Of a DNA stretch of 64,000 nt, positions 1,812 to 62,400 are shown piece after piece. The notes under the pieces were generated by a model. The model searched no databases. It was not told the origin of the DNA and saw only the letters and a program-made list of their open reading frames with translations. Every line of letters starts with the position of its first letter. Within the stretch, counting starts at the first letter, position 1. The position numbers were made by a program, and so were the translations under genes. Origin of the DNA: Chitinophagaceae bacterium 26-R-25 (GTDB lineage Bacteria > Bacteroidota > Bacteroidia > Chitinophagales > Chitinophagaceae); contig JARWSJ010000001.1 of NCBI GenBank assembly GCA_029906195.1, forward strand, positions 2,852,001 to 2,916,000, read 5' to 3'.

Positions 1812-1839
1812 ACTTTTTACTTTTTACTTTTTACTTTTT
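1812..1839. repeat. Four perfect tandem copies of ACTTTTT overlapping the sulfatase 3' end
   Basis: Four exact 7-nt units. Read on the minus strand, the array encodes the last residues of the sulfatase (about KVKSKK) and its TAA stop at 1817-1819, then runs on into the 32 bp before the PL8 gene. It is the same kind of heptamer array as the ATTCCTA arrays elsewhere in the window, with another word. Confidence 0.85.
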
Positions 1840-3322
1840 CCAATAGCTCCGCTAACGCTTTCACTTTCTCCGGCTGCTTTTCCGCCAGGTTATTTTTTTC
1901 TCCGATATCATTACTCAAATCATACAATTGCGCTTTGGGATTATTGCCAAGCTCGGTATTTGTCAGCTTGTTCAGTGCCGCTCCGTTGTTGGGAGCAATA
2001 TATTTCCAGTTGCCTTCGATGACCGCGAAGGTATCACTATCCAGCACCAGCCAGCTTCTTCCCTGTGTAGTTTTTCCTGTCAATGCATCAAGCATGTTTT
2101 GGCTATCTGTCGCTTCCGATGCAGCTAATGGTTGCTGTAACAATTTGGAAAACGATGCTATAAAATCAATCTGGCAAACCAATGCATCAGAAACAGAAGG
2201 CTTTACTGTGCCGGGCCAGCTCAGAAGCATAGGTATACGTGTACCCGCTTCGAAAGCACTGTATTTACCGCCTCTCAAAGGCCCCCATGGTGTGTGACCA
2301 TTTAGTTGCGTTACCGCGCCATCCACATAGCCATCGTCCAGCACGGGCCCATTGTCACTGCTAAAGATGATGATGGTATTCTTTGCAATGCCTGTAGCCT
2401 CCGCTTGCTTCATGATCTCGCCTACTGCCCAGTCAAGTTGTAGAATGGCATCACCTCTAAAACCTAAGCCCGACTTGCCTTTGAACATGGTACTCGGCAT
2501 ACGCGGCACGTGTGGTTCGGTTAAAGCATAGTATAAAAAGAATGGTTTGCTTTTATTGTTTTCAATGAAGGATTTTGCTTTTGTCAAAAATGTAAGCGGC
2601 ATTTCTTCATCCGTCCAGCGTGCTGTGTGGCCGCCACTCATATAGCCAATGCGACCAATGCCATTTACGATTGTGTTATCATGTCCCTGACCGGGCGATG
2701 ACTTCATCTTCAGCAACTCCGGATGATCTTTGCCTGTAGGATCGTTGCCTATGGACTTTTGATAATCTACCGCAATAGGGTCAGCTTTGTCCAATGCCAC
2801 CACGTTGCCGTTTTCTACAAACACCGATGGCACCCTGTCTGCCGTTGCAGGAAAAATAAATGAATAGTCAAAACCCACTTCGTTCGGACCGGGTTTTATT
2901 TCTTCGTTCCAATTTTTTGCCACTGCATCCCCCAGCCCCAAATGCCATTTGCCTACTATGCCTGTTGTATAACCTGCCTTTTGAAACAACTTCGGCAAGG
3001 TGGTGGTATTGGTTGGAACGATCAATGCAGCATCGCCGGGTAGTATGCCAGTGCCGGTTCTGCGCCACGGATATTGCCCTGTCATCAATGCATAACGGGA
3101 AGGCGTACACGTAGCAGATGTGGAGTGAGCGTTTGTAAACCGAACGCTCTGTGCAGCCAGCCTGTCGAGGTTTGGCGTATGGAGTTTTGTAGCACCATAG
3201 CAACTCAGATCGCCGTAGCCAAGATCATCTACATAGATAAAGATCACATTGGGTCGCTGTGCAAAACCTGCAAGAGACCATAAGCTAAAAAAGCAAACAA
3301 CCAGATATTTGCGCATGTTCAT
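1817..3322 (-). CDS. Secreted S1-family sulfatase (formylglycine-dependent)
   Basis: Hydrolyses sulfate esters, probably from the polymer or oligosaccharides produced by the adjacent lyase. The N-terminus is a signal peptide ending near GFAQ (about residue 22). The sulfatase signature C-T-P-S-R is at residues 72-76; Cys72 would become the formylglycine nucleophile. The metal-binding VDDLGYGD lies at 31-38, GKWHLGLG follows the signature, and a downstream SSDNGP carries further metal ligands. At about 500 aa it is normal for a single-domain S1 enzyme. The Met at 3322 or 3316 puts the signal peptide at the start; an upstream Met at 3352 would add ten residues and is less likely. It is first in a two-gene unit with the PL8 lyase. 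The sulfatase subfamily, and so the sulfate position attacked, cannot be told by eye. The C-terminal residues come from a heptamer array. Confidence 0.92.
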   Translation of the reverse strand: MNMRKYLVVCFFSLWSLAGFAQRPNVIFIYVDDLGYGDLSCYGATKLHTPNLDRLAAQSVRFTNAHSTSATCTPSRYALMTGQYPWRRTGTGILPGDAALIVPTNTTTLPKLFQKAGYTTGIVGKWHLGLGDAVAKNWNEEIKPGPNEVGFDYSFIFPATADRVPSVFVENGNVVALDKADPIAVDYQKSIGNDPTGKDHPELLKMKSSPGQGHDNTIVNGIGRIGYMSGGHTARWTDEEMPLTFLTKAKSFIENNKSKPFFLYYALTEPHVPRMPSTMFKGKSGLGFRGDAILQLDWAVGEIMKQAEATGIAKNTIIIFSSDNGPVLDDGYVDGAVTQLNGHTPWGPLRGGKYSAFEAGTRIPMLLSWPGTVKPSVSDALVCQIDFIASFSKLLQQPLAASEATDSQNMLDALTGKTTQGRSWLVLDSDTFAVIEGNWKYIAPNNGAALNKLTNTELGNNPKAQLYDLSNDIGEKNNLAEKQPEKVKALAELLEKVKSKK

Positions 3323-3458
3323 TTGTATTAGATGATCCTTCCAAAAATCCATGTGAATTTAGGGGCTATTTTTTTATGCAAAAGATAAAATGCGCTCTTT
3401 TAGAACACAATTATGTTCTATTTTATCGCCGGGTCAATTGAATCGAACGACAGTAAAG

Positions 3459-4115
3459 TCAATTAAATTCAACACTACCGAAATATTCAGGCAAATGAAA
3501 ATTAGGCGTCGCCGATTCTATATTTGACCACGCAATAAAATGAGGATCGCTCAGCAAATCACCGCATTTATAAAAATTCGCATTGCAGCTTGTGCCTTGC
3601 AAGTTGCCAATAGATGAATGAACAAAACTGCTAACCGGAATGGCGGCAGTCAGTTCCCATTGAATATCTTCAATCTCATGTCGGATAACACTGGCGAGCG
3701 TAACAATGCCCTTCATGACTTCTTTCTCCAAAAAACTTCTTTCTGTTTTCGAAGGGCCAAAGGCAGCAAGAAAATTACCCAGGCAGTTGAATTCGAAATT
3801 GTAATAACCACCGTCACCATCAAATGATACAAAAAACTCAACGCAGCTATCTTCCCAAACGGAGCCCTGCAACTGATTTGCGTGCGCCCTTATCTCTTTT
3901 TCCTTCACGAAATATTTCAAGAATATATAATCGTTTGAATAACCAACGGAGAAAGAAACATGAGGCATGTAGGCATATTCTTTCCACGGAGCGAATTTCA
4001 TCACATGCCTGCGCGTTCCGTCCATGAGGGATGATACTTTCTTTATCCCCTCCTGTTTAAAATCGAGTGATAAAAAATCTGCTTTTAGTTTTTCTTTTAC
4101 CTGGGCGATATTCAT
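3459..4115 (-). CDS. CBM9-like carbohydrate-binding family protein
   Basis: A 218-aa single-domain protein resembling the family 9-like carbohydrate-binding fold common in Bacteroidetes. The best clue is WEDSCVEFF at 87-95 followed by YYNFEFN and a conserved Gly (LGNFLAAFG), the usual core of these beta-sandwiches. It has no signal peptide or lipobox, so it may be cytoplasmic or exported by an unseen route. It lies upstream of and in the same direction as the sulfatase/lyase pair, 136 bp away. A role in sugar binding is inferred from fold and position only. Confidence 0.7.
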   Translation of the reverse strand: MNIAQVKEKLKADFLSLDFKQEGIKKVSSLMDGTRRHVMKFAPWKEYAYMPHVSFSVGYSNDYIFLKYFVKEKEIRAHANQLQGSVWEDSCVEFFVSFDGDGGYYNFEFNCLGNFLAAFGPSKTERSFLEKEVMKGIVTLASVIRHEIEDIQWELTAAIPVSSFVHSSIGNLQGTSCNANFYKCGDLLSDPHFIAWSNIESATPNFHLPEYFGSVEFN

Positions 4116-4416
4116 GATGGCAACTTTATTTTGTGAGAAAACCGAATAAGTAAGCGATGATAAATTTGCTGATCACCTGGCTAAGAAAGGGGTCAAAATT
4201 GTATTTTTTTAGGGGCAAAAAGGTATTCCCCAATTAAATATAACTTCACCCTCTTCAACCTCTTTTCCTCACTACCAGTTCCTCAGCTTTATTTGAAACC
4301 TACGAAATAGTAACCTTTCCAAACATACGGACTTCCTGAAATTAAAAATTGCGCAAACGGTTGATATGATTTACTATGAAGCTTATGGTTACTTTAGGTT
4401 AGAAAATAACGATGTA

Positions 4417-5712: not shown

Positions 5713-5719
5713 AAAATTA

Positions 5720-6637: not shown

Positions 6638-6648
6638 AAGAAAGGATC

Positions 6649-8016: not shown

Positions 8017-8023
8017 GCCCAAT

Positions 8024-8170
8024 TTAACCACAGAGATAACGGAGTTTTTTTCACAGAGAAAAGGAGATTTATATAACAACTCCTTTTCTCTGCTCTTTCA
8101 TGAATAATCAACTATCTCAAAAGCGTTCCTCCTTCCCTCTGTGAAAAAAACCTCCTTTCCTCTGTGGTAA
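8024..8170. repeat. Inverted-arm intergenic element, word CACAGAG, with inner hairpin
   Basis: Fills most of the 352-bp gap after glmM. Arms at 8024-8066 and 8128-8170 are imperfect inverted copies containing CACAGAG words and a run of Ts. A nested perfect 13-bp hairpin pairs 8054-8066 with 8080-8092. The rest of the gap to 8368 shows no gene or clear signal. Confidence 0.8.
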
Positions 8171-8368
8171 AAACATTTGCACCATTTGAGTGCTTCATTA
8201 AGCCCGAGGGGTCTGGGTATCTCTCATTTCTTGTTGTTGTTACATTACAACTCAGATCCCTCGCGCTTCACAAGACAATCTCTTTTCACCGCAACATAAA
8301 CATCAAATAATTTTAAACAAACGACTTATCTTAACAGCATCGAATTACTAAAACAGTTGTCAACCAAC

Positions 8369-9628
8369 ATGATAAAAAAAATCCTTGCATCCTTTGTCCT
8401 GGCAGCCTCAACAACAAGTTTATTTGCGCTGCCTCCGGCGTTCCTCGTGCTAAAAAACAAAAGCACCCTGACCAGGGAAAATGAGCTGATCGTTGTTACA
8501 AGAAGCACACTTACATCAAAAGTGAAGAATCTTCAACCGGGTGAGTATTTGACTTTCTCAGTAAATGGCAAAACGATTCCGGCACAGTTTGATGATGTAG
8601 ATGGTGACGGCAAATGGGATGAAGCAGTGTTGGTTCTTTCTTTCGCAGCTAAAGAGAGCATTAAGTTGCAACTGCAAGCTTCCAAAAATCTGCCTGACTA
8701 TCAGCCCGTTTTTGCTCATGTAAGACAAAAACATAAAAACGCTGATCAAAGCTTTGGTCCGCTGGTGTTAAAGGACACGATGCCACTCAACAATCCTCCA
8801 ACAGATTTTTCGAAAGTTGTATTACCCCCATACCTTACGGAAGGACCTGCATGGGAGAATGATAAGGTGGCATTCCGACTATATTTTGATGCAAGAAATT
8901 GCAAGGATATTTACGGCAAACGTATTGGCGGTATGGTGATGGATACGGTTGGCGCTAATCCTAAAAACAGTTACCATAATTTTTCAAACTGGGGAATGGA
9001 TATCCTACGCGTTGGAAAGTCACTGGGCGCGGGCGCTTTGGCCATTCGCACCAAAACATCATCCAACTCCGACACGCTTATCCGGGTTGGTGGCAACATT
9101 ATAAAATCAGAAACATTTCATGTAGTAAGTGATGGCCCTTTACGTGCCATGTTCGACATGACATACTCCTGCGTCATCAACAACAAACCTTTCACCATAA
9201 CTGAACGCACCAGCATTTGGAAAGGTCAATATTTTTATCAGTCGGATCTTACCATTTCCGGACTTAGTGCTACTGATGAATTAGTAACCGGCATGGCTGA
9301 CTTTTATGAAAATAATGCCGAAGGTCTAAAAGCCAACAATCAAAACATTTATTATTCCTACGGCGCACAAAGTGAGAATAAAGACAAATTAGCGCTTGGA
9401 GTAAGCGTACCAAACAACAGCCACACCTACATGACAAATGCCAATACGTTGCAAAGTGAAATAAAGGATACATGGCTTGTTAGCCAACCTGTTAACAATG
9501 GCAAGCTGTCATTCCGGTTTTATGCGTTGTGGGAAAAAACGAATGCTGCATTTTCTTCGAAGGAAGGCGTTAGGGATTATTTCAACAAGGAGCTGGAGGC
9601 AATGGGGAGCCCTGTAGAAATTAGATAA
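8369..9628 (+). CDS. DUF4861 family secreted protein
   Basis: A 419-aa exported protein recognised as DUF4861, a family seen in Bacteroidetes polysaccharide-use loci. It starts with a signal peptide (MIKKILASFVLAASTTS, cleaved near ALP). The family-typical stretch is YHNFSNWGMDILRVGKSLG near residue 205, with DDVDGDGKWDEAV near residue 70. The ATG at 8369 is chosen over a TTG at 8357 because it places the signal peptide correctly. The enzymatic role is not clear to me; proximity to a PL8 lyase and sulfatase suggests a part in uronic-acid polymer breakdown. Its stop codon runs straight into a TTTGAAAA-type repeat. Confidence 0.75.
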   Translation: MIKKILASFVLAASTTSLFALPPAFLVLKNKSTLTRENELIVVTRSTLTSKVKNLQPGEYLTFSVNGKTIPAQFDDVDGDGKWDEAVLVLSFAAKESIKLQLQASKNLPDYQPVFAHVRQKHKNADQSFGPLVLKDTMPLNNPPTDFSKVVLPPYLTEGPAWENDKVAFRLYFDARNCKDIYGKRIGGMVMDTVGANPKNSYHNFSNWGMDILRVGKSLGAGALAIRTKTSSNSDTLIRVGGNIIKSETFHVVSDGPLRAMFDMTYSCVINNKPFTITERTSIWKGQYFYQSDLTISGLSATDELVTGMADFYENNAEGLKANNQNIYYSYGAQSENKDKLALGVSVPNNSHTYMTNANTLQSEIKDTWLVSQPVNNGKLSFRFYALWEKTNAAFSSKEGVRDYFNKELEAMGSPVEIR

Positions 9629-9645
9629 TTTGAAAATTTGAAAAT
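9627..9645. repeat. Short TTTGAAAA tandem word at the DUF4861 stop codon
   Basis: Two degenerate copies of a TTTGAAAA word start at the stop codon. The same word forms longer arms at 14396-14544 and 17333-17362. Confidence 0.6.
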
Positions 9646-9663: not shown

Positions 9664-9763
9664 TTTAACCGCAAAGAGCGCAAAGGTCGCGCAAAGAAAA
9701 CAAGGAGGTCTTTTGTGCATTCTTCGTTCCCTTTGCGCAACCATTGCGCTCTTTGCGGTTAAA
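9664..9763. repeat. Inverted-arm intergenic element, word GCAAAG
   Basis: Left arm 9664-9696 and right arm 9731-9763 pair over 33 nt with two mismatches. Each arm holds three GCAAAG words spaced 9-11 nt apart. The 34-nt centre contains TTTTGTGCATT. Confidence 0.85.
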
Positions 9764-13296: not shown

Positions 13297-13337
13297 CACA
13301 CTGATAACGCTGATTTGACTGATTTGCACTGATTTTT
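13297..13337. repeat. Single-arm repeat, word CTGATTTG
   Basis: Degenerate tandem CTGATTTG-type words, also found at 17368-17407 and 54625-54759. No inverted partner is seen nearby. Confidence 0.65.
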
Positions 13338-13424
13338 TCCCACAGTTCAACTGCATTTCTAATTTATCGAAGCTACGTTCGAAAGAAACAAAGGCTGCGA
13401 CATATTGTTAACTAAGCGACCATG

Positions 13425-13473
13425 ATTCCTAATTCCTAATTCCTAATTCCTAATTCCTAATTTCCAATTCCTC
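13425..13473. repeat. ATTCCTA heptamer array
   Basis: About six 7-nt units in a row, the most regular array before the SDR gene. Together with the 13297-13337 repeat it is the only visible content of the 346-bp gap between the TPR lipoprotein and the SDR gene, apart from presumed promoters. Confidence 0.8.
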
Positions 13474-14368: not shown

Positions 14369-14395
14369 CTAAATGGTACGCAAGGGACAACAGGT

Positions 14396-14544
14396 GAATT
14401 TGAAAATTTGAAGATTTGAAAATTCTTTGTGCGTGGCATTCCTAATGCAAATTAAACAGCCCGCTGTGCAAAAATAAATGAACTCTACGTTGCGATCAGC
14501 ACGGGATCATTTTCAAATCTTCAAATCTTCAAATTTTCAAATTG
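14396..14544. repeat. Inverted-arm intergenic element, word TTTGAAAA/TTTGAAGA
   Basis: Left arm 14396-14424 and right arm 14511-14544 are inverted copies of degenerate 7-8 nt TTTGAAnA words. The centre begins with CTTTGTGCGTGGCATT (14425-14440), also present almost unchanged in elements at 15031 and 25993 whose arms use a different word. Confidence 0.8.
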
Positions 14545-14546
14545 AC

Positions 14547-14578: not shown

Positions 14579-14995
14579 ATGAAAGCATTTGATCCATATT
14601 TAGCATTCAACGGCAATTGCCGTGAGGCGATGGAGTTTTACCAAAAAGCATTTGGTGGTGAGTTGAAAATTATTACTTACGGAGAAGCTCCCGGTGGCAA
14701 TCAATCAGGAGATGATAAAGACCTTATAATGCACGCCCAGTTGGTGAAAGACGGTGTTACATTAATGGCTTCTGATGGCATGGGAGATAACAAAGTAACA
14801 TTCGGTTCATCTGTTTCTGTTTCGCTTCAGTGCAGCAGCAAAGAAGAAACAGATACCTTCTTTAAAGGCCTTACTGATGGCGCTAAAATAACAATGCCTT
14901 TACAAGATACTTTCTGGGGCGCTTACTTTGGTATGCTGACGGATAAGTTTGGAATACATTGGTTGTTGAATTATGATAAACCTGCTGCGCAGTAG
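14579..14995 (+). CDS. VOC family protein (PhnB-like)
   Basis: 138-aa vicinal-oxygen-chelate fold protein with two beta-alpha-beta-beta-beta modules. The N-terminal DPYLAFNGNCREAMEFYQKAFGGEL and C-terminal WGAYFGMLTDKFGIHWLLNY blocks are typical of the PhnB/glyoxalase-like family often labelled 3-demethylubiquinone methyltransferase-like. Function in this subgroup is generally unknown. The ATG at 14579 is preferred to an upstream TTG at 14552 because the latter overlaps the candidate promoter. Confidence 0.85.
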   Translation: MKAFDPYLAFNGNCREAMEFYQKAFGGELKIITYGEAPGGNQSGDDKDLIMHAQLVKDGVTLMASDGMGDNKVTFGSSVSVSLQCSSKEETDTFFKGLTDGAKITMPLQDTFWGAYFGMLTDKFGIHWLLNYDKPAAQ

Positions 14996-15000
14996 CGCAA

Positions 15001-15144
15001 TTGAGAATTAGGAATTAGGAATTAAGAATTCTTTCTGTGCGTCATTGTACACTGTTCAATACGCCGCATTGAACAGTGTACAATAGAAAAGTGATGCAGC
15101 ACATGAACAATTCTTAATTCCTAATTCCTAATTCTTAATTCCTC
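15001..15144. repeat. Inverted-arm ATTCCTA element with perfect central hairpin
   Basis: Outer arms of AATTAGG-type heptamers (15003-15030) and ATTCCTA-type heptamers (15107-15144) face each other. In the centre a perfect 17-bp inverted repeat pairs 15044-15060 with 15068-15084 around ACGCCGC. The core word CTTTCTGTGCGTCATT is at 15031-15046. The element fills the gap between two convergent genes. Confidence 0.85.
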
Positions 15145-15145
15145 T

Positions 15146-16150: not shown

Positions 16151-16245
16151 AAATATAAATTTTACGAGAACAAATGTATTCTACAGGAGCGGGTGGGTGT
16201 TAATAGATTTCAAACAGAAAATTATAAAATTCAAACAAGAGAAGG

Positions 16246-16406
16246 GACGCAGATTATCATGATTGTCATGATTAGTCATGATACATGTTTTGAATAAAAT
16301 AATTTACCTCTTAAATGTCGTCCCTGATAAATTTACAAAACATTGCACTACTATCTTTATTAATAAAATCTTATCAAATCATGATAATCATGATAATCTG
16401 TGTTCC
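16246..16406. repeat. Inverted-arm intergenic element, word TCATGATTG
   Basis: Left arm 16246-16273 and right arm 16377-16406 are inverted near-copies with 9-nt TCATGATTn words preceded by CAGATTA. The right arm ends four bases from the AraC stop codon. Confidence 0.8.
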
Positions 16407-16409
16407 TAT

Positions 16410-17303: not shown

Positions 17304-17332
17304 TGTGTAAATTTATAAAAATCAAACAAGGA

Positions 17333-17407
17333 CAATTTGAAAATTTGAAGATTTGAAAATTAGAGAGCACGCAGATGACACTGATTTGACTGATTTGCAC
17401 TGATCTT
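17333..17407. repeat. Adjacent TTTGAAnA and CTGATTTG tandem arrays
   Basis: 17333-17362 repeats the TTTGAAnA word of 14396-14544; 17368-17407 repeats the CTGATTTG word of 13297-13337. Two different word families sit side by side upstream of the AraC gene. Confidence 0.7.
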
Positions 17408-17456
17408 TTGTAAAACAGAAGAGTGTTTATCAGCAATCCAAACATTACACAGAATG

Positions 17457-17495
17457 CCTTCCTAATTCCTAATTCCTGATTCCTAATTCCTAATT
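17457..17495. repeat. ATTCCTA heptamer array
   Basis: Five to six ATTCCTA-type units directly next to the terminator of the SusCD operon. Confidence 0.75.
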
Positions 17496-17525
17496 GAAAA
17501 AGGCCTGCATTGCTGCAAGCCCTTC
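17496..17525 (-). terminator. Terminator of the SusC/SusD operon
   Basis: On the minus strand, GGCTTGCA pairs with TGCAGGCC (one G-U pair) around a GCAA tetraloop and is followed by TTTTTC. It lies 36 bp after the susD stop. Confidence 0.8.
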
Positions 17526-17561
17526 CTTTTTTATCCTGTTTGTTGTGAGTTATGTTTACTA

Positions 17562-25907: not shown

Positions 25908-25956
25908 GGTGGGGAATTTAGGAGGCGGATGAAAAAATCGTTCCGCGGAGCGGAAG

Positions 25957-26135
25957 TAGGAATTAGAAATTAGAAGCTAGGAATTAGAGATGCTTTGTGC
26001 GTAGCATTACAATTCCTGGCGGTCACCGTTCATATGCATCATTTGCTTCTGTGCTTATGCTTAAACCGAGTATAAAAAAAGGTTGTGATAATTGTCCTAC
26101 GATTCCTAATTCCTAACTCCTAATTCCTAATTCCT
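25957..26135. repeat. Inverted-arm ATTCCTA element
   Basis: Left arm 25957-25989 (AATTAGG-type words) and right arm 26101-26135 (ATTCCTA-type words). The core CTTTGTGCGTAGCATT at 25993-26008 matches the 14425 core with one change. It fills the gap between divergent genes. Confidence 0.8.
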
Positions 26136-26177
26136 CCTCATGGTACAACATTTGCACCCATATCCAAAACCTCACAC

Positions 26178-26925: not shown

Positions 26926-26976
26926 AGGAAAGGTTTAAATAATAATTGAATAATTGACGGACATGGAAAGCTGAAC

Positions 26977-27043
26977 GCTGAAAGCTTAACGCCGAACGCT
27001 TAGCAAGGCCCCTGCGTTAAGCATTCGGCGTTAAGCTTTCAGC
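26977..27043. repeat. Inverted-arm element, word GCTTAACGC; possible terminator-like hairpin
   Basis: Left arm 26977-27005 and right arm 27013-27043 pair almost completely around a 7-nt loop (AGGCCCC-like), with tandem AGCTTAACGCCGAACGC-type words. It sits 8 bp after the stop of the XRE-S24 gene but lacks a T-run. Confidence 0.8.
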
Positions 27044-27050
27044 ACCGTAC

Positions 27051-27800: not shown

Positions 27801-27876
27801 GACTAATAATTTTAGCAGCTAAAATACTAAACTTTTTAACAAAATGAAATTTTATAATAGGATTTTTTGGAGGTTT

Positions 27877-28010
27877 CCACTAAGGCACTAAGTACACAAG
27901 GCCCACTAAGAAAGACTGTAATAAAAAATTGATTTATAAAAATCATCAGAATTCTTGCTAAAGTATTTCGTACCCTTAGTGAACCTATGTGTACTTAGTG
28001 CCTTAGTGGT
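27877..28010. repeat. Inverted-arm element, word CACTAAG (copy 1)
   Basis: Perfect 22-bp inverted pairs at 27877-27898 and 27988-28009, with further CACTAAG/CTTAGTG words inward. Similar elements are at 35782-35894 and 46224-46384. This is the main content of the 353-bp gap between the divergent XRE and SurE genes. Confidence 0.85.
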
Positions 28011-28153
28011 AATCTTTTACTCTATACAACATCTAAATTTTGCTAACGTTATAATATTCGTGATTTTTACAATACACAATTGCCGAAAGAAATTCCGGGC
28101 ATCTGAAAATCGCTTGTCTTCATGCTTATTCCTGAATTTCTTTCGCCTAAACA

Positions 28154-29268: not shown

Positions 29269-29289
29269 GAAGTTGTTAGTTATTAGGAG

Positions 29290-29420
29290 TAGCCGGTTGC
29301 CAGTGGCCTGTAGCCGGTACTTATGTGCATCTTTATTCAAAACAATCAAGCCGCAGAATTTTCAAAAAGAAAATTTATCGTTCAACTTACCGGCAACTGG
29401 CTACCGGCCATCGGCAACAA
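29290..29420. repeat. Inverted-arm element, word GTAGCCGGTTGCC
   Basis: Left arm about 29290-29320 and right arm about 29388-29418 carry degenerate AGCCGGT/GTTGCC words in opposite orientation. It is more GC-rich than the other elements. Confidence 0.65.
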
Positions 29421-29431
29421 AACATACCCAA

Positions 29432-29463
29432 TAAAAAAAGCCGCACAATGTGCGGCCTTTTTG
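29432..29463. terminator. Bidirectional terminator
   Basis: Stem GCCGCAC/GTGCGGC (29440-29446 with 29450-29456), flanked by AAAAAAA on the left and TTTTT on the right. It serves the surE unit on plus and the 29483-29908 gene on minus. Confidence 0.85.
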
Positions 29464-29482
29464 CATCTGCTAAATGTAATAA

Positions 29483-29908: not shown

Positions 29909-30231
29909 AATTGTAATATTTATAATGAATAAAAAAAACTACGTTGATTCCATAGGCAAGCAAACAAAAAAAGTATAACAAGCTGAATTTTAATGTGCAG
30001 GCAATAGCGTTAAAGAAAAGCAAACAACCGTGATGGCAAAGGAAAAAATCGAAAGAGGACAGTGTGTGTAAAGCTTAGCGTTTTGTATTTGCTATGTAAA
30101 TTGCTTTACTATTATGACACAAAGATATGATCGCAAATCGAAAATCCAAATTTTTTTCTAATGAAGTTTGTGTTAAGACACTAACGGGTGTTAGGTTTTG
30201 TGCGATATAACTATTATGCTCATGCGACAAT

Positions 30232-30495
30232 TAAGAATTAGGAATTAAGATTTAAGAATGCTTTGTGGCTTAGCTTCCATCATATTACTTTACATCAAAA
30301 TGATCGACGTTTTCAAAGCTTTTTTTATAAAAATATCTTCAATAAAAAAAGAAAGCTTTAACAACTCAAGCTTGATAGTGTAAGCAAAATGTCGGACTCA
30401 ACTTGCCGAAGCCTCTCAAACAGGGAGTATGTTACTTAGATAATTCATCAGCAGCACCGACAATTCTTAATTCTTAATTCCTAATTCCTAATTGT
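30232..30495. repeat. Inverted-arm ATTCCTA element with long centre
   Basis: Left arm 30232-30257 (GAATTAAG/AATTAGG-type words) and right arm 30464-30495 (ATTCTTA/ATTCCTA words) around about 200 nt. The centre contains CTTTGTGGCTTAGCTT (30261-30276), a weaker match to the core word, and TCTCAAACAGG (30414-30424), also found at 34376. 29909-30231 shows only presumed promoter sequence. Confidence 0.75.
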
Positions 30496-33229: not shown

Positions 33230-33237
33230 ACTCAATG

Positions 33238-33316
33238 TACGATTTTGGATGTACGAAAATCATCACGGTGTTACACTCTAACGAATATCGTACACCGCAC
33301 TTCGTACCTCGTACAC
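33238..33316. repeat. Inverted-arm element, word GTACGA
   Basis: GTACGA/TGTACGA words at 33238-33257 face TCGTAC words at 33288-33315, in the gap between thrA and thrB. Degenerate but with the same layout as the other elements. Confidence 0.6.
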
Positions 33317-33369: not shown

Positions 33370-34341
33370 ATGTCCACTAACAACGAAACAAAACAAGCAA
33401 CAGCGAAACCCGGCGACAGTATTAAAGTGCACGCACCGGGCACTGTAGCCAACCTTGTTTGCGGCTTCGATATTCTTGGTCTTGCGCTGAATGAACCTTG
33501 TGATGAAATGGAAATAAAGATCATTGAAGAACCCAAAGTGATCATTCATCACAGAGACAATTACAACCTGCCACTTGAACCCGAAAAGAATGTTTGCGGC
33601 GTAGCACTTCTTGCTATGATGGACAAACTGGATAACAAATTCGGCTTCGAACTGACAGTTACAAAACACATAAAACCCGGCAGCGGCATAGGTTCCAGCG
33701 CCGCAAGCGCAGCGGGCCCTGTAGTCGCAGCAAATAAACTGCTTGGCAACTATTTCAGCAATGAAGATCTTGTGCAGATGGCTATGTTTGGTGAAAAGTT
33801 AGCATCTGGCGTAAAGCACGCGGACAACATTGCACCTTGCATTTACGGCGGCATTACGTTGATCCGCGCCATTCATCCGCTGGATATTATTTCCATCCCT
33901 GCACCGCCGATGTTTGTAACATTGGTGCATCCCCAGATCGAAGTAAAAACTTCCGATGCCAGACAAATTTTGAAGAAACAGGTTCTTCTTAAAGATGCCA
34001 TTAAGCAGTGGGGAAACATAGCGGGATTGGTCGCAGGCTTCATTAAAAGCGATTATGAACTGATCGGCCGTTCATTGGAAGATGTAATCATCGAACCTGT
34101 GCGCAGCATTCTCATTCCAGGCTTTGATGATGTAAAGGCACAAAGCAAAGAAGCAGGCGCCTTAGGTGGTGGCATCTCCGGCTCCGGCCCTTCTATCTTC
34201 ATGCTCAGCAAAAACGAAGCAGAAGCCAAAGCCGTTGAAGTCGTAATGAAAGACATTTATGAAAAAATCGGCATTGAGTATTATACGTATGTGACGACGA
34301 TAAATAACGAGGGAGTGAAGCAATTAGGAATTAAGAATTAG
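33370..34341 (+). CDS. thrB: Homoserine kinase
   Basis: GHMP-family kinase making O-phosphohomoserine. The N-terminal strand KVHAPGTVANLVCGFDILGLAL carries the substrate-binding residues. The ATP phosphate loop PGSGIGSSAASAAG is at about 103-116, and the C-terminal motif GGGISGSGPSIFML at about 260-273. 323 aa. The last residues (QLGIKN) and the stop are encoded by an ATTAGGA-type heptamer array, an odd tail that a close relative without the repeat should lack. Confidence 0.94.
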   Translation: MSTNNETKQATAKPGDSIKVHAPGTVANLVCGFDILGLALNEPCDEMEIKIIEEPKVIIHHRDNYNLPLEPEKNVCGVALLAMMDKLDNKFGFELTVTKHIKPGSGIGSSAASAAGPVVAANKLLGNYFSNEDLVQMAMFGEKLASGVKHADNIAPCIYGGITLIRAIHPLDIISIPAPPMFVTLVHPQIEVKTSDARQILKKQVLLKDAIKQWGNIAGLVAGFIKSDYELIGRSLEDVIIEPVRSILIPGFDDVKAQSKEAGALGGGISGSGPSIFMLSKNEAEAKAVEVVMKDIYEKIGIEYYTYVTTINNEGVKQLGIKN

Positions 34342-34480
34342 GAATTAGGAATTAATAGGTGCTACATCAAAAGATTCTCAAACAGGCTTTAAGTGTCACT
34401 CTATTAATCCTTAATTATTAATTATTAATTCGACAATCGCGTTCTCCAATTCTTAATTCTTAATTCCTAATTCTTAATTG
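34322..34480. repeat. Inverted-arm AATTAGG/ATTCCTA element overlapping the thrB end
   Basis: Left arm 34322-34356 begins inside thrB and includes its stop. Right arm 34443-34480 is ATTCTTA/ATTCCTA words, and TTAATTA heptamers lie at 34401-34430. The centre has TCTCAAACAGG (34376-34386). It fills the 141-bp thrB-thrC gap. Confidence 0.8.
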
Positions 34481-35769: not shown

Positions 35770-35781
35770 AAAGCTGAGATT

Positions 35782-35894
35782 ACCACTAAGTCACTAAGTG
35801 AACTAAGTAACACTAAGCTTTTTTATAAGAACAATCACAAGACATCAATAACGCTCTTCTTAGTGAAGCTTAGTGTTCTTAGTGTCTTAGTGGT
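35782..35894. repeat. Inverted-arm element, word CACTAAG (copy 2)
   Basis: Left arm 35782-35820 and right arm 35856-35894 hold four to five CACTAAG/CTTAGTG words each in opposite orientation, starting 13 bp after the thrC stop. Confidence 0.85.
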
Positions 35895-40574: not shown

Positions 40575-41193
40575 TGACTTAAAAAATGAATGGGCGGACG
40601 ACATTTCAAAGGATGTTCCGCTTGAGATAAAGAAGGTACCGCTTGATAAAACAAAGTCTACCATCGACAGGCTGAAAATAAATATGAGAAGAGAATTTTT
40701 CGGTCTCGCACTGTCTTTTCTTTTTATCTTTCTCGTCTTCTTCATTTTGTCCAAGCCTTATTTATCTTTCTTAATTGGAGGAGCAGCTTGTTTTATTTTG
40801 TTAATGCAATCCATTTATTTCTGTTACCACTGCTATATTTTTTACAAACAGTTAGAAAGATATGATTTGAGTTTGCGTAAAAACATCCGCAAAATTGCCT
40901 ATGATCTGGAGCTCAACATTGAGCGATATAAAACATATTCTTTTTGTTCAATGCCCATCGGCATCCTGACTTGTGTGGCATATTTAAATACAGACAAAAT
41001 CGGCGAATTACTCAAACAAACATTCTTTGCCGGATCAATTGTGCAAATAAAACCATTGCTCATTACAGGCATCATAATAATCTTCGCGCAGTTGCTCAGT
41101 TACTACCTTTCCAAACTGCATATTGACCACCAGTATGGACGATATTTGAAAGAGTTGAAACAAGTGATGAATGATTTGGAGGAAGAAAATTAA
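40564..41193 (+). CDS. Membrane protein, likely partner (anti-sigma) of the upstream ECF factor
   Basis: 209 aa with an N-terminal cytoplasmic part of about 45 residues (MNFDDLKNEWADDISKD), which could bind sigma, then two hydrophobic pairs (about 47-88 and 130-178). The start overlaps the sigma gene by 11 bp. It does not carry a recognised zinc anti-sigma (ZAS) His-Cys motif, so the anti-sigma role rests on context. Confidence 0.65.
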   Translation: MNFDDLKNEWADDISKDVPLEIKKVPLDKTKSTIDRLKINMRREFFGLALSFLFIFLVFFILSKPYLSFLIGGAACFILLMQSIYFCYHCYIFYKQLERYDLSLRKNIRKIAYDLELNIERYKTYSFCSMPIGILTCVAYLNTDKIGELLKQTFFAGSIVQIKPLLITGIIIIFAQLLSYYLSKLHIDHQYGRYLKELKQVMNDLEEEN

Positions 41194-41324
41194 TAATTAA
41201 TAATTAGTAATTAACAAGGCCACATTCGTTAGCGAATGTGGCCTTGTAGTATGTTAAGAATAAAGCGACGTATCAGTTATTTTGCAGCTTCACCTATTAA
41301 TTATTAATTGTTAATTATTAATTA
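41189..41324. repeat. Inverted-arm AATTATT element with perfect central hairpin
   Basis: TAATAAT-type heptamers (41189-41214) begin at the stop codon of the previous gene; the opposite arm is 41294-41324. The inner perfect 14-bp hairpin (41215-41228 with 41233-41246, loop TTAG) is GC-rich. Confidence 0.8.
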
Positions 41325-41339
41325 CACCAATCAGCTCTC

Positions 41340-41394
41340 TAACTCCTAACTCCTAATTCCTAATTCCTAATTCCTAATTCCTAATTCCTAATTA
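41340..41394. repeat. ATTCCTA heptamer array at the LtaS-like gene end
   Basis: About seven heptamers in a row, the longest regular array in the window. The minus-strand stop codon of the following gene lies at its edge. Confidence 0.85.
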
Positions 41395-46208: not shown

Positions 46209-46223
46209 TAAAGATCAAAAATT

Positions 46224-46384
46224 ACCACTAAGGCACTAAGTACACTAAGTTCCACTTAGACTGCCACTTATCTGGCACTCTAACTTTACCTTTAATTTCA
46301 AAGAGCCAATACAAAAATGTATTGGCTCTTAATATTCTGATAAAACACCTTAGTGAAACTTAGTGTCCTTAGTGCCTCAGTGGT
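46224..46384. repeat. Inverted-arm element, word CACTAAG (copy 3), with terminator-like centre
   Basis: Left arm 46224-46260 and right arm 46348-46384. The centre holds a perfect 13-bp hairpin AAGAGCCAATACA/TGTATTGGCTCTT (46301-46313 with 46318-46330). It fills the gap between the convergent glycosyltransferase and aspartokinase genes and may act as their terminator. Confidence 0.85.
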
Positions 46385-46394
46385 AAAAAAACTC

Positions 46395-47717: not shown

Positions 47718-47812
47718 TTTCTTAGTAACAAGCTAAAAGCTAAGTTTAGCCATTTTTTAGTGAAAAATATTGTTGAAATAATTTGTTTTGCTTTCTCTCA
47801 GGTTGCTAATGA

Positions 47813-47895
47813 AGTCAAAAGTCAAAATTAAAAAGTCAAAAAGTGGCCGCTTTGTCGGAACCCATTTTGAATTTTTACTTTTTAATTTTTACTTT
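47813..47895. repeat. Inverted-arm element, word AGTCAAAA / ACTTTTT
   Basis: Left arm 47813-47844 and right arm 47863-47895. The right arm resembles the ACTTTTT array at 1812-1839. It lies between the aspartokinase and the Ldh-family gene. Confidence 0.75.
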
Positions 47896-49023: not shown

Positions 49024-49078
49024 AGTCGTTGGTTGTTAGTTGATAGTTGTTAGTGATCATCAGTTATTCAGTTATTCA
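49024..49078. repeat. GTTGTTAGTTG / AGTTATTC tandem words
   Basis: Two neighbouring tandem-word arrays (TTAGTTG-type and CAGTTATT-type). No clear inverted partner. Confidence 0.5.
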
Positions 49079-49082
49079 GGCG

Positions 49083-53923: not shown

Positions 53924-54541
53924 ATGGCCACTAAAAAAAAGGTAGCAAAAAAAGCTCCGGCAAAAAAAGCAGTTGCTAAAAAAGCAGTTGCTAAAAAGGC
54001 CGCTCCAAAAAAGGCCGCGCCTAAAAAAGCAGCAAAAAAAGTTGTTAAGAAAGCCGCACCTAAAAAAGCTGTAAAAAAAGCTGCAAAGAAAGTAGTAAAA
54101 AAGGCAGCTCCTAAGAAAGCGATCAAAAAAGTAGTTAAAAAGGCTGCTACGAAGAAAGCGGCTCCTAAAAAGGCAGCAAAAAAAGCAGCTCCCAAGAAAG
54201 TTGTGAAAAAAGCAGCTCCTGCGAAGAAAGCGGCTCCTAAAAAAGCAGCTCCTGCACCCAAAAAAGCAGCGAAAAAAGCGCCATTGAAAAAAGCACCTGT
54301 AAAAAAAGCAGCTCCAGCTAAAAAAGCAGCTCCTAAAAAAGCAGCAAAGAAAGCCGTTAAAAAAGTAGCTCCAGCTAAAGTTCAACCTTCTCCGGCACCA
54401 ATGGAAGAACCAATTGAAATGCCTGCACCAATGGAGGAACCAACTACTGAGCCTATCTCCCATGATAGCGACGAAAGCGGTCCGGATTCATTTGACGTTC
54501 CTGAAATGCCAAATGATGACAACGATGAAGACGAGGCTTAA
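53924..54541 (+). CDS. Histone H1-like Lys/Ala/Pro-rich protein with acidic tail
   Basis: 205-aa low-complexity protein. Residues 1-150 are almost only Lys, Ala, Pro and Val in KKAAPKK-type repeats, like the C-terminal domain of eukaryotic histone H1 and bacterial Hc1/AlgP-like proteins. Such tails bind DNA or RNA non-specifically. Residues about 152-205 are a distinct tail: Pro/Glu/Met-rich (PAPMEEPIEMPAPMEEP) then strongly acidic (DNDEDEA), which could shield or tune the basic part. It lies on the strand opposite to fusA and rpsG, inside the usual str cluster, with its own terminator. The frame is supported by amino-acid bias and terminator; long antisense frames here are artefacts of the bias. 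Confidence 0.85.
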   Translation: MATKKKVAKKAPAKKAVAKKAVAKKAAPKKAAPKKAAKKVVKKAAPKKAVKKAAKKVVKKAAPKKAIKKVVKKAATKKAAPKKAAKKAAPKKVVKKAAPAKKAAPKKAAPAPKKAAKKAPLKKAPVKKAAPAKKAAPKKAAKKAVKKVAPAKVQPSPAPMEEPIEMPAPMEEPTTEPISHDSDESGPDSFDVPEMPNDDNDEDEA

Positions 54542-54617: not shown

Positions 54618-54624
54618 TGGGCCC

Positions 54625-54759
54625 ACTGATGACACAGATTGGACCGATTTACACTGATTTTCGCGTGAATCATTGAATAATTGAATATCAGGAAAACAAC
54701 GTGCTGTCACTTCCTTGAAAAAAATCAGCGTAAATCAATCCAATCCGTGTCACCTGTGT
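54625..54759. repeat. Inverted-arm element, word CTGATTTG-type
   Basis: Left arm 54625-54661 and right arm 54721-54759 are inverted near-copies carrying ACTGAT/CGATTT words. It fills the 302-bp gap between the histone-like gene and rpsG together with the terminators. Confidence 0.8.
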
Positions 54760-54782
54760 GCCAAAACCTTGATCGAAGGCAA

Positions 54783-56907: not shown

Positions 56908-56908
56908 T

Positions 56909-56916: not shown

Positions 56917-56960
56917 TGCAAAGAAACGAACAAAGTTTGGGGTTGCCAAAATACAAGACA

Positions 56961-57485: not shown

Positions 57486-57497
57486 TCCAGTTTTGAC

Positions 57498-58082: not shown

Positions 58083-58138
58083 TTTTACTACTGAATCACA
58101 AATAATTACAAATTTTTATCCTGGAAAATAAAAAAGGT

Positions 58139-58702: not shown

Positions 58703-58705
58703 AAC

Positions 58706-59563: not shown

Positions 59564-59577
59564 AAAACGCTATTTCC

Positions 59578-59585
59578 TACCTTTG
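59578..59585 (+). promoter_or_regulatory. -7 box directly before the thioesterase start
   Basis: TACCTTTG ends five bases before the ATG at 59591. If used, the mRNA would have almost no leader. Confidence 0.45.
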
Positions 59586-59590
59586 AATCT

Positions 59591-60034
59591 ATGGCGCGAA
59601 TTAAAATTGATTTACCAAAGGCATTTACTTTTTCCACGTCTATAGACATACGTATTTCAGATCTCAATTATGGTGGCCATGTTGGCAACGACACTATACT
59701 TTCATTACTGCACGAGGCCAGGGTTCGCTTCTTACAACACTACGGATATTCCGAACTTAATCTTGAAGGAATTGGCATCATCATGGGCGACGTGGCGATT
59801 GAGTACAAGGCCGAGGGCTTCTACGGGGACAGGTTAAATATCCAGGTTTGTGCCGATGAATTCACAAGAGTTTCATTCGATATCTTTTATAAAATTGAAA
59901 AAGAACACGACGGTAGAAACGTTGTGGTGGCTATTGCTAAAACAGGTATCGTAGGCTATGACTACAACTTGAAAAAAGTGACTGCAATACCAGAAAAAGC
60001 AAAACTAATATTAACGGAAACTAGTAGCCATTAA
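59591..60034 (+). CDS. Hotdog-fold acyl-CoA thioesterase (YbgC/4HBT-like)
   Basis: 147-aa single hotdog domain. The central helix has DLNYGGHVGNDTILSLLHEARVRFLQHYGYSE, in which the Asp-x-N-x-GGHVGND block replaces the usual D-x-x-G-H-V-N-N. VAIEYKAEGFYGDRLNIQ follows. Acyl-CoA substrates are typical; chain length unknown. Confidence 0.85.
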   Translation: MARIKIDLPKAFTFSTSIDIRISDLNYGGHVGNDTILSLLHEARVRFLQHYGYSELNLEGIGIIMGDVAIEYKAEGFYGDRLNIQVCADEFTRVSFDIFYKIEKEHDGRNVVVAIAKTGIVGYDYNLKKVTAIPEKAKLILTETSSH

Positions 60035-60043
60035 GCTTTACCG

Positions 60044-60232
60044 CTATTCGTGATTTAAGCGATAAGCCACGTGTTGATTTATTTGTACGGAGGAAGAAGG
60101 ATTCTCGCTTTGCTCGAAAATCATGGTAGAACGATCTTTATTATTTTGCTGATTATGTTTTACGACGTGCATCACAGTAATCAGAACTAATTCACCCAAT
60201 AGAAGTAAGGCCGGTAAGTTTCTTTTTTGCAT
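60044..60232 (-). CDS. Small single-helix membrane protein (hypothetical)
   Basis: 62-aa frame starting MQKRNLPALLLLGELVLITVMHVV, one likely membrane helix, followed by a polar tail. It converges on the thioesterase gene with a 9-bp gap. No homologue recognised. Supported only by a plausible start and topology. Confidence 0.4.
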   Translation of the reverse strand: MQKRNLPALLLLGELVLITVMHVVKHNQQNNKDRSTMIFEQSENPSSSVQINQHVAYRLNHE

Positions 60233-60413
60233 ACAAAGGGAATTTATTATTCTACAATCGGCCAGCAAATCGTTTTAGACAGGACAAGGATTCCCTATCA
60301 CACTAAAATATTCATTAATATCCTAAAATCAAAATTATCGCTGCATTTTAAATAAAAAGCAGCTTTCCTTTATAACATTTTGCATATCAACACTTTCTCG
60401 TATTAATTCTTCG

Positions 60414-61211
60414 TTAACTATTCAATATCTTATTATAACTGGTAACGATGCCCCTAATGAGCGATGAACTGAATCCCTGGTGCTCCATTTCATTTAACCC
60501 TGCTATTGTACATCCTTTTGGAGTGGTCACCTTATCGATTTCCTGTTCAGGATGCGCTCCTTTTAAAAGAAGAAGATCTGCCGCTCCTTTTACAGTTTGT
60601 GCTGCAATAAGACTAGCGGTTGCTGCACTAAAACCGATTTCTATGCCTCCCTGGATATTGGCGCGAATATATCTCATTGCAAAAGCAGTACCACAGGCAC
60701 CCAGCACCGTAGCCGCATCCATTAGCTTTTCGTCGATCATTGCAACTTTGCCCAATTTCTCAAAAAGGTTCTTTATAAAGTCAACCTGGGTACTATTTGC
60801 CCCTTTATGACTTATGCACGTCATGCTCTCCTGGATCGCGATCGCGGTATTCGGCATTGCCCGGAATAAAGGAACATTTTTCTGAACGGCATTCTGCATA
60901 TCTTCTATGAAAATTCCGGTTATAACGGAGACCAGTATATGTTTTTGAGGATCCAATTCTGCTTTAAAGCCATCCAGCACATCTTTTATTTGAAAAGGTT
61001 TTACAGCAAGTATTACAACATCGCTGTTTTTTACGGCTTCAATGTTATCTGAAGTGACGTTTACACCTCTATTTTTTAGCGCCTCAAGTTCTGCGAGATT
61101 TCTGCGTGTGATGGTAATGTCGGCTGGTTTGGAGAATTCGCTTTTCAATAACCCTTCTGCTATAGCTGTGCCAAGGTTTCCGCCGCCTATTATTGCTATC
61201 TTATTGTACAT
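60414..61211 (-). CDS. proC: Pyrroline-5-carboxylate reductase
   Basis: Last step of proline synthesis. NAD(P)-binding IIGGGNLGTAIAEGLLKS at 6-23, VVILAVKPFQI near 70, FRAMPNTAIAIQESMT near 115, and the C-terminal dimer signature TTPKGCTIAGLNEMEHQGF near 230-248. 265 aa, normal. Separated from hldD by a hairpin terminator. Confidence 0.94.
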   Translation of the reverse strand: MYNKIAIIGGGNLGTAIAEGLLKSEFSKPADITITRRNLAELEALKNRGVNVTSDNIEAVKNSDVVILAVKPFQIKDVLDGFKAELDPQKHILVSVITGIFIEDMQNAVQKNVPLFRAMPNTAIAIQESMTCISHKGANSTQVDFIKNLFEKLGKVAMIDEKLMDAATVLGACGTAFAMRYIRANIQGGIEIGFSAATASLIAAQTVKGAADLLLLKGAHPEQEIDKVTTPKGCTIAGLNEMEHQGFSSSLIRGIVTSYNKILNS

Positions 61212-61230
61212 GGTGTCGGTTTTATATAAT

Positions 61231-61269
61231 AGAAAAAGCCATCACTAAAATAGTGAAATGGCTTTTTCT
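61231..61269. terminator. Bidirectional hairpin terminator
   Basis: AGAAAAAGCCAT and ATGGCTTTTTCT arms pair (61231-61242 with 61258-61269) with an inner CACTA/TAGTG stem. It serves hldD on the minus strand. Confidence 0.85.
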
Positions 61270-61292
61270 ATGTTTTAATTCTGATTGCGAAT

Positions 61293-62270
61293 TTAGTAAA
61301 ACTTTGCCTGCGATAAATAATTTCTCACATAATCCTGCACTCCTTCTTCTAATGAATAAAATTTATCGGTGTACCCTGCATCGAAAAGCTTTTGCATATT
61401 CGCTTCTGTGAAATATTGGTATTTGTCGCGAATATCTTCGGGCATGTCGATGAACTGAATATTCAGTGTTGTGTCTATACCTGCAAATGTTGCTTTTACC
61501 AAATCTTCGAACGCTCTTGCTTTGCCGGTACCAAGGTTATATATCCCTGATGCAGGTTTGTTTTGCATGAGCCAATAACAAACTTTGATAACATCTTTAA
61601 CGTACACAAAGTCTCGAAGCTGTTGACCATCTTTAAAGTCGGGCCTGTGTGACCTGAACAGCTTTACCAGTCCATCTTTCTTTATTTGATTGAAGGAATG
61701 GAATATTACGCTAGCCATTCTCGCTTTGTGATATTCGTTTGGTCCATAAACGTTGAAAAATTTTAGTCCCGCCCAAAATGGAGGTTGTGCCGATTGCTGA
61801 ATCGCCCATTTGTCAAACTCATTTTTGGATATACCATAAGGATTCAGTGGCTTAAGTTTGAAAGGCAATTCGTGGTTGTCATCGTAGCCAAATTCACCTC
61901 CTCCGTATGTTGCAGCGGAAGAAGCATACACCAACGGAACATTTTTGCCAACGCAATAATTCCATATTTTTTGGGAATACTCAACGTTGAGATGCTCGTG
62001 TATAGCGTAGTTAAATTCGGTGGTATCTGTTCTGGCCCCGATGTGAAATATGAAATCAATCGCAGGATCATTCTTCTGCAACCAATCGAAGAAGGATTCT
62101 CTTTCTATTTTCTGAAGGTATGTTTTACCCTGAAGATTGGGTTCTTTGTCGGCTCTTGAAAATTCATCAACAAGTAACAAATTCGTATACCCCTGACTGT
62201 TAAGAAAACCCACCAGGCAGCTTCCGATAAAGCCAGCGGCGCCGGTTACAACTATTGTGGATTCGTTCAT
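61293..62270 (-). CDS. hldD: ADP-L-glycero-D-manno-heptose 6-epimerase
   Basis: Extended SDR epimerase making the heptose of LPS inner core. VVTGAAGFIGSCLVGFLNSQG (NAD-binding, 7-27), FHIGARTDTTEF, the catalytic YGISKNEFDKW near 148 (Tyr and Lys), and FFNVYGPNEYHKARMASVIFH near 172 are typical of HldD. 325 aa. Supports a Gram-negative envelope. Confidence 0.92.
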   Translation of the reverse strand: MNESTIVVTGAAGFIGSCLVGFLNSQGYTNLLLVDEFSRADKEPNLQGKTYLQKIERESFFDWLQKNDPAIDFIFHIGARTDTTEFNYAIHEHLNVEYSQKIWNYCVGKNVPLVYASSAATYGGGEFGYDDNHELPFKLKPLNPYGISKNEFDKWAIQQSAQPPFWAGLKFFNVYGPNEYHKARMASVIFHSFNQIKKDGLVKLFRSHRPDFKDGQQLRDFVYVKDVIKVCYWLMQNKPASGIYNLGTGKARAFEDLVKATFAGIDTTLNIQFIDMPEDIRDKYQYFTEANMQKLFDAGYTDKFYSLEEGVQDYVRNYLSQAKFY

Positions 62271-62290
62271 AATTCCAATTATTCTTGAAT

Positions 62291-62400
62291 AATTGGTAAT
62301 TAATAATTAATAATTAATAATTAATATCGAAGTCTCTGCAAGGAAGCTTAGTTGCATTAAAGCAGGGTGACTGTCTATTAATTATTAATTATTAATTACA
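62291..62400. repeat. Inverted-arm AATTATT element
   Basis: TAATAAT-type heptamers at 62291-62325 face TTAATTA heptamers at 62376-62400, around about 50 nt. Ends two bases before the purL stop. Confidence 0.8.

Follow-up and report, generated by a model that had tools for sequence, protein, structure and literature searches.

Many of the gaps between genes in Chitinophagaceae bacterium 26-R-25 hold the same architecture, two arms of degenerate tandem words that face each other around a loop, and the question is what such arrays are and how they came to be there. We addressed it in a window of 64,000 nucleotides (the whole stretch of DNA analysed; contig JARWSJ010000001.1, positions 2,852,001 to 2,916,000), in the rest of the genome and in related bacteria. 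On balance we favour the reading that the arms bound small mobile elements between genes, a class of elements that have word-matched proteins, move in trans and displace one another. The inverted word arrays themselves are real and abundant. A strict scan for inverted pairs (exact seed 9, score at least 17) gives 14 for the window, 9 of which have strong tandem words in each arm, whereas five block-wise dinucleotide shuffles give none. Facing tandem-word arms occupy 18 window gaps when five pairs are added that the scan missed or scored low because their words are degenerate or unevenly spaced (marked in Table 1), and five further spots carry solo or mismatched arms, so that the figure of at least twenty gaps given in the first-pass annotation was fair, as was its notion of a single shared design. 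Shuffled sequence yields almost no such arrays (0 in the window and 1 of 370 in the congener-gap test described below), which rules out a chance origin. The predicted RNA folding of eight selected window elements gives z-scores of −3.7 to −14.8, matched by 0 of 200 shuffles in each case.

The genome comprises 6.51 Mb in 6 contigs, of which we sampled 1.264 Mb (19%). This sample holds 338 inverted pairs, 252 of them with tandem words, which extrapolates to roughly 1,300 tandem-word pairs genome-wide if the remainder is alike. All but 14 single pairs fall into 14 clusters of two or more (238 of 252), built on AATTARG with AATTAAT, AATTGAAAGTTGAA, AATAACTGA, AATTTGAA, CATGATTGT, AAGTCAAAA, CACTAAG, GCTTAACGC, AGTTGTTAG, GTACGA, GAGTTTTGAG, GCAAAG and CACGGATT, plus one small non-word cluster. 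The words are therefore not private to single elements, and the earlier impression that only the design is shared does not hold: each word defines a dispersed family whose arms follow a conserved consensus, and relatedness extends to some loops. CACAGAG elements come in addition to the 252 pairs, since the spacing between their words is too wide for the tandem score to register; two of them (L291 and L295; L numbers are our locus handles) lie nested within CACTAAG elements, a possible step in word exchange. Across the window and 20 further 20-kb stretches, 95 of 112 pairs carry tandem words, and two shuffles per stretch give 0 pairs. In sampled stretches excluding the window itself (1.200 Mb), the density is 19.7 word elements per 100 kb, against 13.5 and 11.5 in two congeners, G001 and G002.

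Two families of short protein genes lie between such arms. The genome encodes three GxxExxY proteins (TIGR04256) and six four-helix proteins of the 23S ribosomal RNA (rRNA) intervening sequence protein (IVP) type (TIGR02436), none of the nine in the window. All nine genes sit between inverted arms, made of nine different words, and the inversion is significant for 6 of 6 four-helix and 3 of 3 GxxExxY genes; among congeneric four-helix genes, 11 of 12 have arms. For a wider view we took the best 80 loci of at least 584 confirmed four-helix relatives, whose titles range over Chitinophagaceae, other Bacteroidota, Ignavibacteria, Planctomycetota, Bacillota, Campylobacterales, Propionigenium, Myxococcales, Victivallales, Endomicrobia and Candidatus Shapirobacteria. 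In the first version of the test, inversion of the flanks exceeds that of 40 shuffles at 68 of these 80; a rerun with 150-nt flanks finds 64 of 77 inverted, 60 with tandem words, and among other open reading frames (ORFs) of the same loci only 5 of 54 are inverted and 2 of 54 carry tandem words. In a sample from the phylum, GxxExxY loci have arms in 23 of 30 cases (first test) or 24 of 30 (rerun), counts that differ slightly between versions because of different shuffles and a different minimum flank. Both genes are patchy and multi-copy: 114 of 148 phylum genomes carry the four-helix gene (up to 16 copies) and 74 of 148 the GxxExxY gene (up to 12). IVP genes have been reported inside cas loci (PMC3936711), which free-standing insertions would explain. 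A search by family name, with subscription journals and preprints outside its coverage, returned no paper linking either protein family to word arms.

The class of word matches the class of protein. Words of the form C[AG]CN[AG]AG (such as CACAGAG, CGCAAAG and CACTAAG), present inward at least twice on both sides, occur at 22 of 30 GxxExxY loci, compared with 0 of 30 and 1 of 80 four-helix loci. The words of the latter are mostly of 7–8 nt; by eye, loci found with the A3 query mostly carry AAT(T/G)NNN, and other four-helix subfamilies carry AGCTNTT-like or AGTATCAAG-like words. Within the four-helix family, similar proteins tend to go with similar words (r = 0.47, 0 of 300 permutations, 99 loci with significant arms). 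Pfam assigns all three GxxExxY proteins to PDDEXK_3 and the five four-helix proteins tested to 23S_rRNA_IVP, all above cut-off. The best predicted GxxExxY structure reaches a predicted local distance difference test score (pLDDT) of 87, the other four models 43–59; the PDB folds nearest to the best one, SSO0001, a Cas4 protein and lambda-type exonucleases, all match at E = 0.001 or higher. D67, E77 and K79 are invariant in the alignment of the three GxxExxY proteins and presumably form the PD-(D/E)XK motif. Solved structures of four-helix relatives include 2rld and 2gsc (XCC0516), and XCC0516 is a toroidal homopentamer (PMC4990558).

The anatomy of the elements is strongly polar, as the word reads inward from both borders. 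Of 742 gaps, 405 are free of arms, 107 have one arm only and 7 have two that point the same way; where one left and one right arm occur together, the order is left-right in 181 gaps (166 with arms of the same family, 15 of different families) and right-left in none. We saw a single reversed-word pair (L060:8909). Position is also constrained. In co-directional gaps (n = 128) the element starts a median of 6 nt after the upstream stop codon, within −10 to +10 in 80 of 128, and ends a median of 46 nt before the next start codon; in convergent gaps a median of 7 nt separates element and stop codons (114 distances). Convergent gaps hold the most elements for their length (2.1 per kb) and divergent ones the fewest (0.9). 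In the divergent gaps no stop codon adjoins, and 36 of the 221 placed elements lie there; the position statistics exclude 31 of the 252 elements, which overlap called ORFs or stretch edges. Where an element lies no more than 20 nt from the gene end, a terminator-like hairpin follows in 15 of 189 cases, compared with 119 of 465 gene ends without an element (p = 1e-7), part of which contrast may be a matter of room, since the element fills the gap. Placement and folding scores together bear out the prediction of long RNA hairpins at the 3′ ends of genes. The location that the elements had been said to share is sharper than proposed; their supposedly common length holds only loosely, the loops of named families running from 0 to 257 nt with family medians of 16 to 111.

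Arms are common to more elements than loops are in sample comparisons, in line with the spread of arms suggested at the outset. Of 172 loops of at least 40 nt in the sample without the window, 130 have no similarity elsewhere in the sample; the other 42 match a same-family element (13), another family (13, many through nested words) or something else (16). When all loops of a family are compared with one another, the pairs above a 1% threshold number 5 of 496 for AATTARG, 18 of 276 for AATTTGAA and 11 of 253 for CATGATT. Three AATTTGAA copies share a diverged loop (scores 26–31, shuffle maximum 12), as do two AATTARG copies, both sets chosen by whole-genome similarity. No target-site duplication was found at the borders, where direct repeats of at least 3 nt flank 41 of 252 elements against 60 expected from shuffled flanks. 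Own arms resemble each other more than they do other arms on average, in a set preselected for matching arms. The idea that arms mirror each other beyond the family consensus finds little support, the own arm being the best partner in a minority of cases in most families (for example 4 of 36 and 1 of 30); in the GCTTAACGC family it is the single best partner in 8 of 13.

Comparison with the congeners shows that the words change while the sites persist. Flanking genes allowed us to place all 52 window gaps in G001 and 46 of them in G002. An automatic occupancy test, restricted to gaps of at least 60 nt and prone to overlook degenerate elements visible by eye (gaps 4, 22 and 37, for example, in some species), finds elements in G001 in 10 of 14 gaps occupied here and 3 of 20 empty here (p = 0.0014), and in G002 in 10 of 13 and 3 of 16 (p = 0.003). 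By eye, G001 has an element, one of them degenerate, in 17 of the 18 paired gaps, and none in 46209–46394. The word differs in 7 of the 10 gaps scored in both for G001 and in 4 to 5 for G002. Six of the seven G001 changes are among the similar AATTARG and AATTAAT words, and the seventh (16151–16409) has CATGATT here and AATTTGAA there. By eye, gaps that the automatic test misses also show unrelated words, at 8017–8356, 27801–28153 and 29269–29482, and in G002 at 26926–27050 (GCTTAACGC here, AATAACTGA there) and 35770–35862 (CACTAAG here, GTACGA there). The loop of 14394–14546 runs in the opposite orientation in G001 (score 36 in reverse, 9 forward, at most 12 in shuffles), as expected if arms recombine. 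Thus the gaps are not simply conserved sequence, and the anticipated differences between close relatives at identical flanks are found between sister species, mostly not as presence or absence: an occupied gap tends to remain occupied with a change of word, and an empty gap tends to remain empty. Resident elements seem to be displaced, plain conservation and random-site insertion both fitting poorly. The G001 counterpart of gap 17304–17561 is a long palindrome with GATTTG and ATTATTGG stretches, outside the named word families.

From these observations we infer the following mechanism. The tandem-word arms would be the ends of one class of small intergenic mobile elements, in whose coding members the arms enclose a single short gene, for a four-helix (23S rRNA IVP) or a GxxExxY protein of PD-(D/E)XK fold. 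Because each protein family has its own word type, the word array is most likely a multimeric recognition site of the protein, read as DNA or as transcribed RNA. Non-coding members, arms around a mostly private loop, would most likely owe their movement in trans to such proteins, acting with host repair. Elements would settle directly behind stop codons, where their hairpin may stand in for an intrinsic terminator, and an incoming element would usually displace the resident one, keeping the site and changing the word. A bolder version goes further: oligomeric four-helix proteins and, separately, PD-(D/E)XK-fold proteins would read end words through a protein-word code, resident hairpin ends could be rewritten from one word to another, and 23S rRNA intervening sequences would be rRNA-inserted members of a larger intergenic class. 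We put this forward tentatively, as possible and somewhat less than probable.

Several results weigh against the mobile-element reading. No movement of an element has been observed. Since 75 of 319 size-matched ORFs of this arm-rich genome pass a loose flank test, the nine own genes are weak evidence alone and arm-poor genomes decide; moreover, at two of the nine (L029 and L031) the arm on the right is part of another, complete pair. In the phylum sample, four-helix loci are positive in 15 of 30 cases (first test) or 19 of 30 (rerun), and the control ORFs at that level are few, with 0 of 5 positive in the four-helix set and 2 of 5 in the GxxExxY set. Reversed words still give r = 0.35 for the four-helix family, base composition being part of the correlation, and the word-protein correlation for GxxExxY is weak (r = 0.22, 14 of 300 permutations, 25 loci). 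Homology at the inner edges between coding and non-coding members of one family was weak or absent in the four families tested. The number of elements does not track the number of four-helix genes across 20 genomes (Spearman 0.25, p = 0.29), and nine genomes with 5–15 four-helix genes have 0–1 word elements per 40 kb, which would make the non-coding bloom special to this lineage and in need of a further cause. Selection at the RNA level finds little echo in G·U wobbles, whose bias is weak in co-directional gaps (95 G·U, 71 A·C) and which number 33 against 37 A·C in convergent ones. To our knowledge, the four-helix protein has no catalytic activity.

The alternative that survives best, although we judge it unlikely, is that the hairpins belong to the host: paired regulator sites or terminators held at gene ends by selection and not mobile, with words drifting by slippage and the orphan genes inserted late into the gaps. 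The placement behind stop codons with few intrinsic terminators there, and the continued occupancy of the same gaps in congeners, are what it would lead one to expect, and paired opposite-strand arrays of 7–8-nt repeats in Geobacter metallireducens have been proposed as global regulator sites (PMC2700814). Drift, however, does not turn one word into an unrelated one at the same gap (CATGATT and AATTTGAA; CACTAAG and GTACGA), and word class matches protein class even in genomes where arrays are rare.

Less likely still is the process proposed in the first-pass annotation, or a variant of it, in which palindromic sites break, template switching adds or copies arrays inward at both ends, and the arms spread without a transposon. 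It accommodates shared arms around mostly private loops, the lack of target duplication, word exchange at fixed sites and an inward polarity that persists in the 15 gaps with mismatched arms. Template switching at single sites nevertheless fails to explain why ends made of words enclose genes of two particular protein families in different phyla and why word and protein match, and it does not foresee the diverged loops common to three AATTTGAA and two AATTARG copies.

We regard as improbable that these are ordinary repetitive extragenic palindromes (REPs) or miniature inverted-repeat transposable elements (MITEs) mobilised by Y1 or DDE transposases of this genome, with the orphan genes as passengers. 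The genome's one intact Y1 gene, which resembles those of REP-associated tyrosine transposases (RAYTs) (L311:1177–1866), does lie between inverted GCTCTGCAAGGCTTGTAG-type arms whose family recurs at seven dispersed sites in the sample; a published arrangement likewise has a Y1 gene between such repeats (PMC3733652). Its arms, however, are not tandem words, it is the only intact Y1 gene found, and target duplication is lacking. Very improbable is spread at the RNA level, by a reverse transcriptase copying transcript hairpin ends with the help of an Avd-like four-helix protein. Four matches to reverse-transcriptase domains exist in the genome, and one congener's protein also matches Pfam bAvd, below cut-off, but 0 of the 4 reverse-transcriptase loci are flanked by word arms and the G·U bias is weak.

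The mobile-element reading places these arrays beside several known systems. They are best read as members of none of REP/RAYT, rRNA intervening sequences (IVS) or MITEs, because at least one defining feature of each fails, and as working most like REP/RAYT. REP/RAYT and TIRtrons share with them many short palindromic intergenic elements of which a few copies hold a gene between the same repeats, and REPs are thought to be mobilised in trans by RAYTs (PMC3733652). Dispersed palindromic repeats, some flanking the partner gene, occur here too; the partner in REP/RAYT is a Y1 (HUH) tyrosine transposase, whereas the word arms bracket four-helix or PDDEXK_3 genes, and the ends here are tandem words whose type follows the protein family. 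The 23S rRNA IVS with an S23/IVP ORF has the same protein family (Pfam 23S_rRNA_IVP) between stem-forming inverted arms (PMC4990558), as do the coding members here with that gene; the IVS is inserted in rRNA and excised by RNase III, whereas our elements are intergenic, and in these the arms are tandem words. The array architecture itself is already described in Geobacter metallireducens, where intergenic 7–8-mer arrays are paired on opposite strands at variable distance (PMC2700814), and Beggiatoaceae have intergenic TAACTGA heptamer repeats resembling the word arrays (PMC4679880). Both were read as regulator-binding sites, and the available excerpts of the two papers (PMC2700814, PMC4679880) mention no linked protein between arms. 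Avd of diversity-generating retroelements adjoins their reverse transcriptase, whereas 0 of the 9 own genes lie near the four reverse-transcriptase places. MITEs are short non-coding elements with inverted ends and many copies. Terminal inverted repeats, lack of coding capacity and high copy number are found here as well; the lack of target-site duplication speaks against a simple MITE, and the loops are mostly unrelated, with a minority related.

Like the Y1 gene, the genome's one solo GIY-YIG gene and one of its two solo DUF559 genes lie between inverted arms; a UvrC-like gene at a locus edge (L321) was excluded from this comparison. The GIY-YIG gene (L320:1246–1875) is bracketed by palindromic arms that lack tandem words (TTGTCATCCCGA..GAGGGATCTG) and belong to a dispersed family. 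The sample contains 30 arms of this family (TTGTCATCCCGA...GGGATCTG), of which one is its own (others are, for example, at L013:13844, L019:14915 and L060:434). The DUF559 gene (L318:1349–1863) lies between GCACATCCCCTCCTGGGAGGGGCAGGGG arms, and one search pattern found no further arms of that type in the 1.264-Mb sample. Ordinary genes between arms are found in a few cases, two of which we take to be imidazolonepropionase-like and glycerol-kinase-like, and we read them as chance or rearrangement. At L027:1869–3239, L019:18513–19838 and L013:5891–6549, ordinary genes lie between outward-facing arms of 35–47 bp; each case is probably a pair of adjacent elements whose arms are almost identical, not a single element. 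The window also contains a lysine- and alanine-rich coding repeat (AAAAAAGCAGCTCCT units, 53946–54370) that has no relation to the word elements.

Table 1. Word elements, solo arrays and mismatched arms in the window. A plus sign marks pairs added to those of the strict scan.
Feature	Position	Added	Remarks
Solo ACTTTTT array	1812–1839		
CACAGAG element	8023–8172	+	Arms 8023–8066 and 8129–8172; gap 8017–8356 holds a CACTAAG element in both congeners
GCAAAG element	9664–9763		Solo AATTTGAA left arm at 9618–9645
Mismatched arms	13299–13472		CTGATTTG left, ATTCCTA right
AATTTGAA element	14394–14546		Loop inverted relative to G001
AATTAGG element	14994–15145		AATTAAT element in both congeners
CATGATTGT element	16243–16407		AATTTGAA element in both congeners
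Mismatched arms	17334–17495		AATTTGAA and ACTGATTTG left, TTCCTAA right
AATTAGG element	25955–26138		
GCTTAACGC element	26966–27043		Gap 26926–27050: AATAACTGA in G002
CACTAAG element	27871–28015		Gap 27801–28153: GTACGA in both congeners
GTAGCCGGT element	29289–29418	+	Gap 29269–29482: AGTTGTTAG in both congeners
AATTAAG/AATTAGG element	30227–30495		Loop of 203 nt
GTACGA element, degenerate	33235–33316	+	
AATTAAG element	34322–34479		AATTAAT right arm nested within, 34402–34430
CACTAAG element	35782–35894	+	Gap 35770–35862: GTACGA in G002
AATTAAT element	41188–41323		Followed by solo CTAATTC array, 41339–41393
CACTAAG element	46222–46386		Short stem in loop resembles an intrinsic terminator
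AAAGTCAAAA element	47812–47895		
Mismatched arms	49033–49079		TTGTTAG left, TCAGTTAT right
CACTGATT/CACGGATT-type element, degenerate	54622–54762	+	
AATTAAT element	62289–62398		AATTAGG in G001

Taken together, these results point to mobile hairpins akin to REP/RAYT whose partner proteins are new, and which have been overlooked as a class of mobile DNA. If this is true, two common small orphan families would gain a context and a testable role, and word arrays of 7–10 nt make DNA or RNA binding by both directly testable in vitro. The REP/RAYT idea would extend to other protein folds, rRNA intervening sequences would be offered an origin, and the fast change of gene-end hairpins among related bacteria would become easier to explain.

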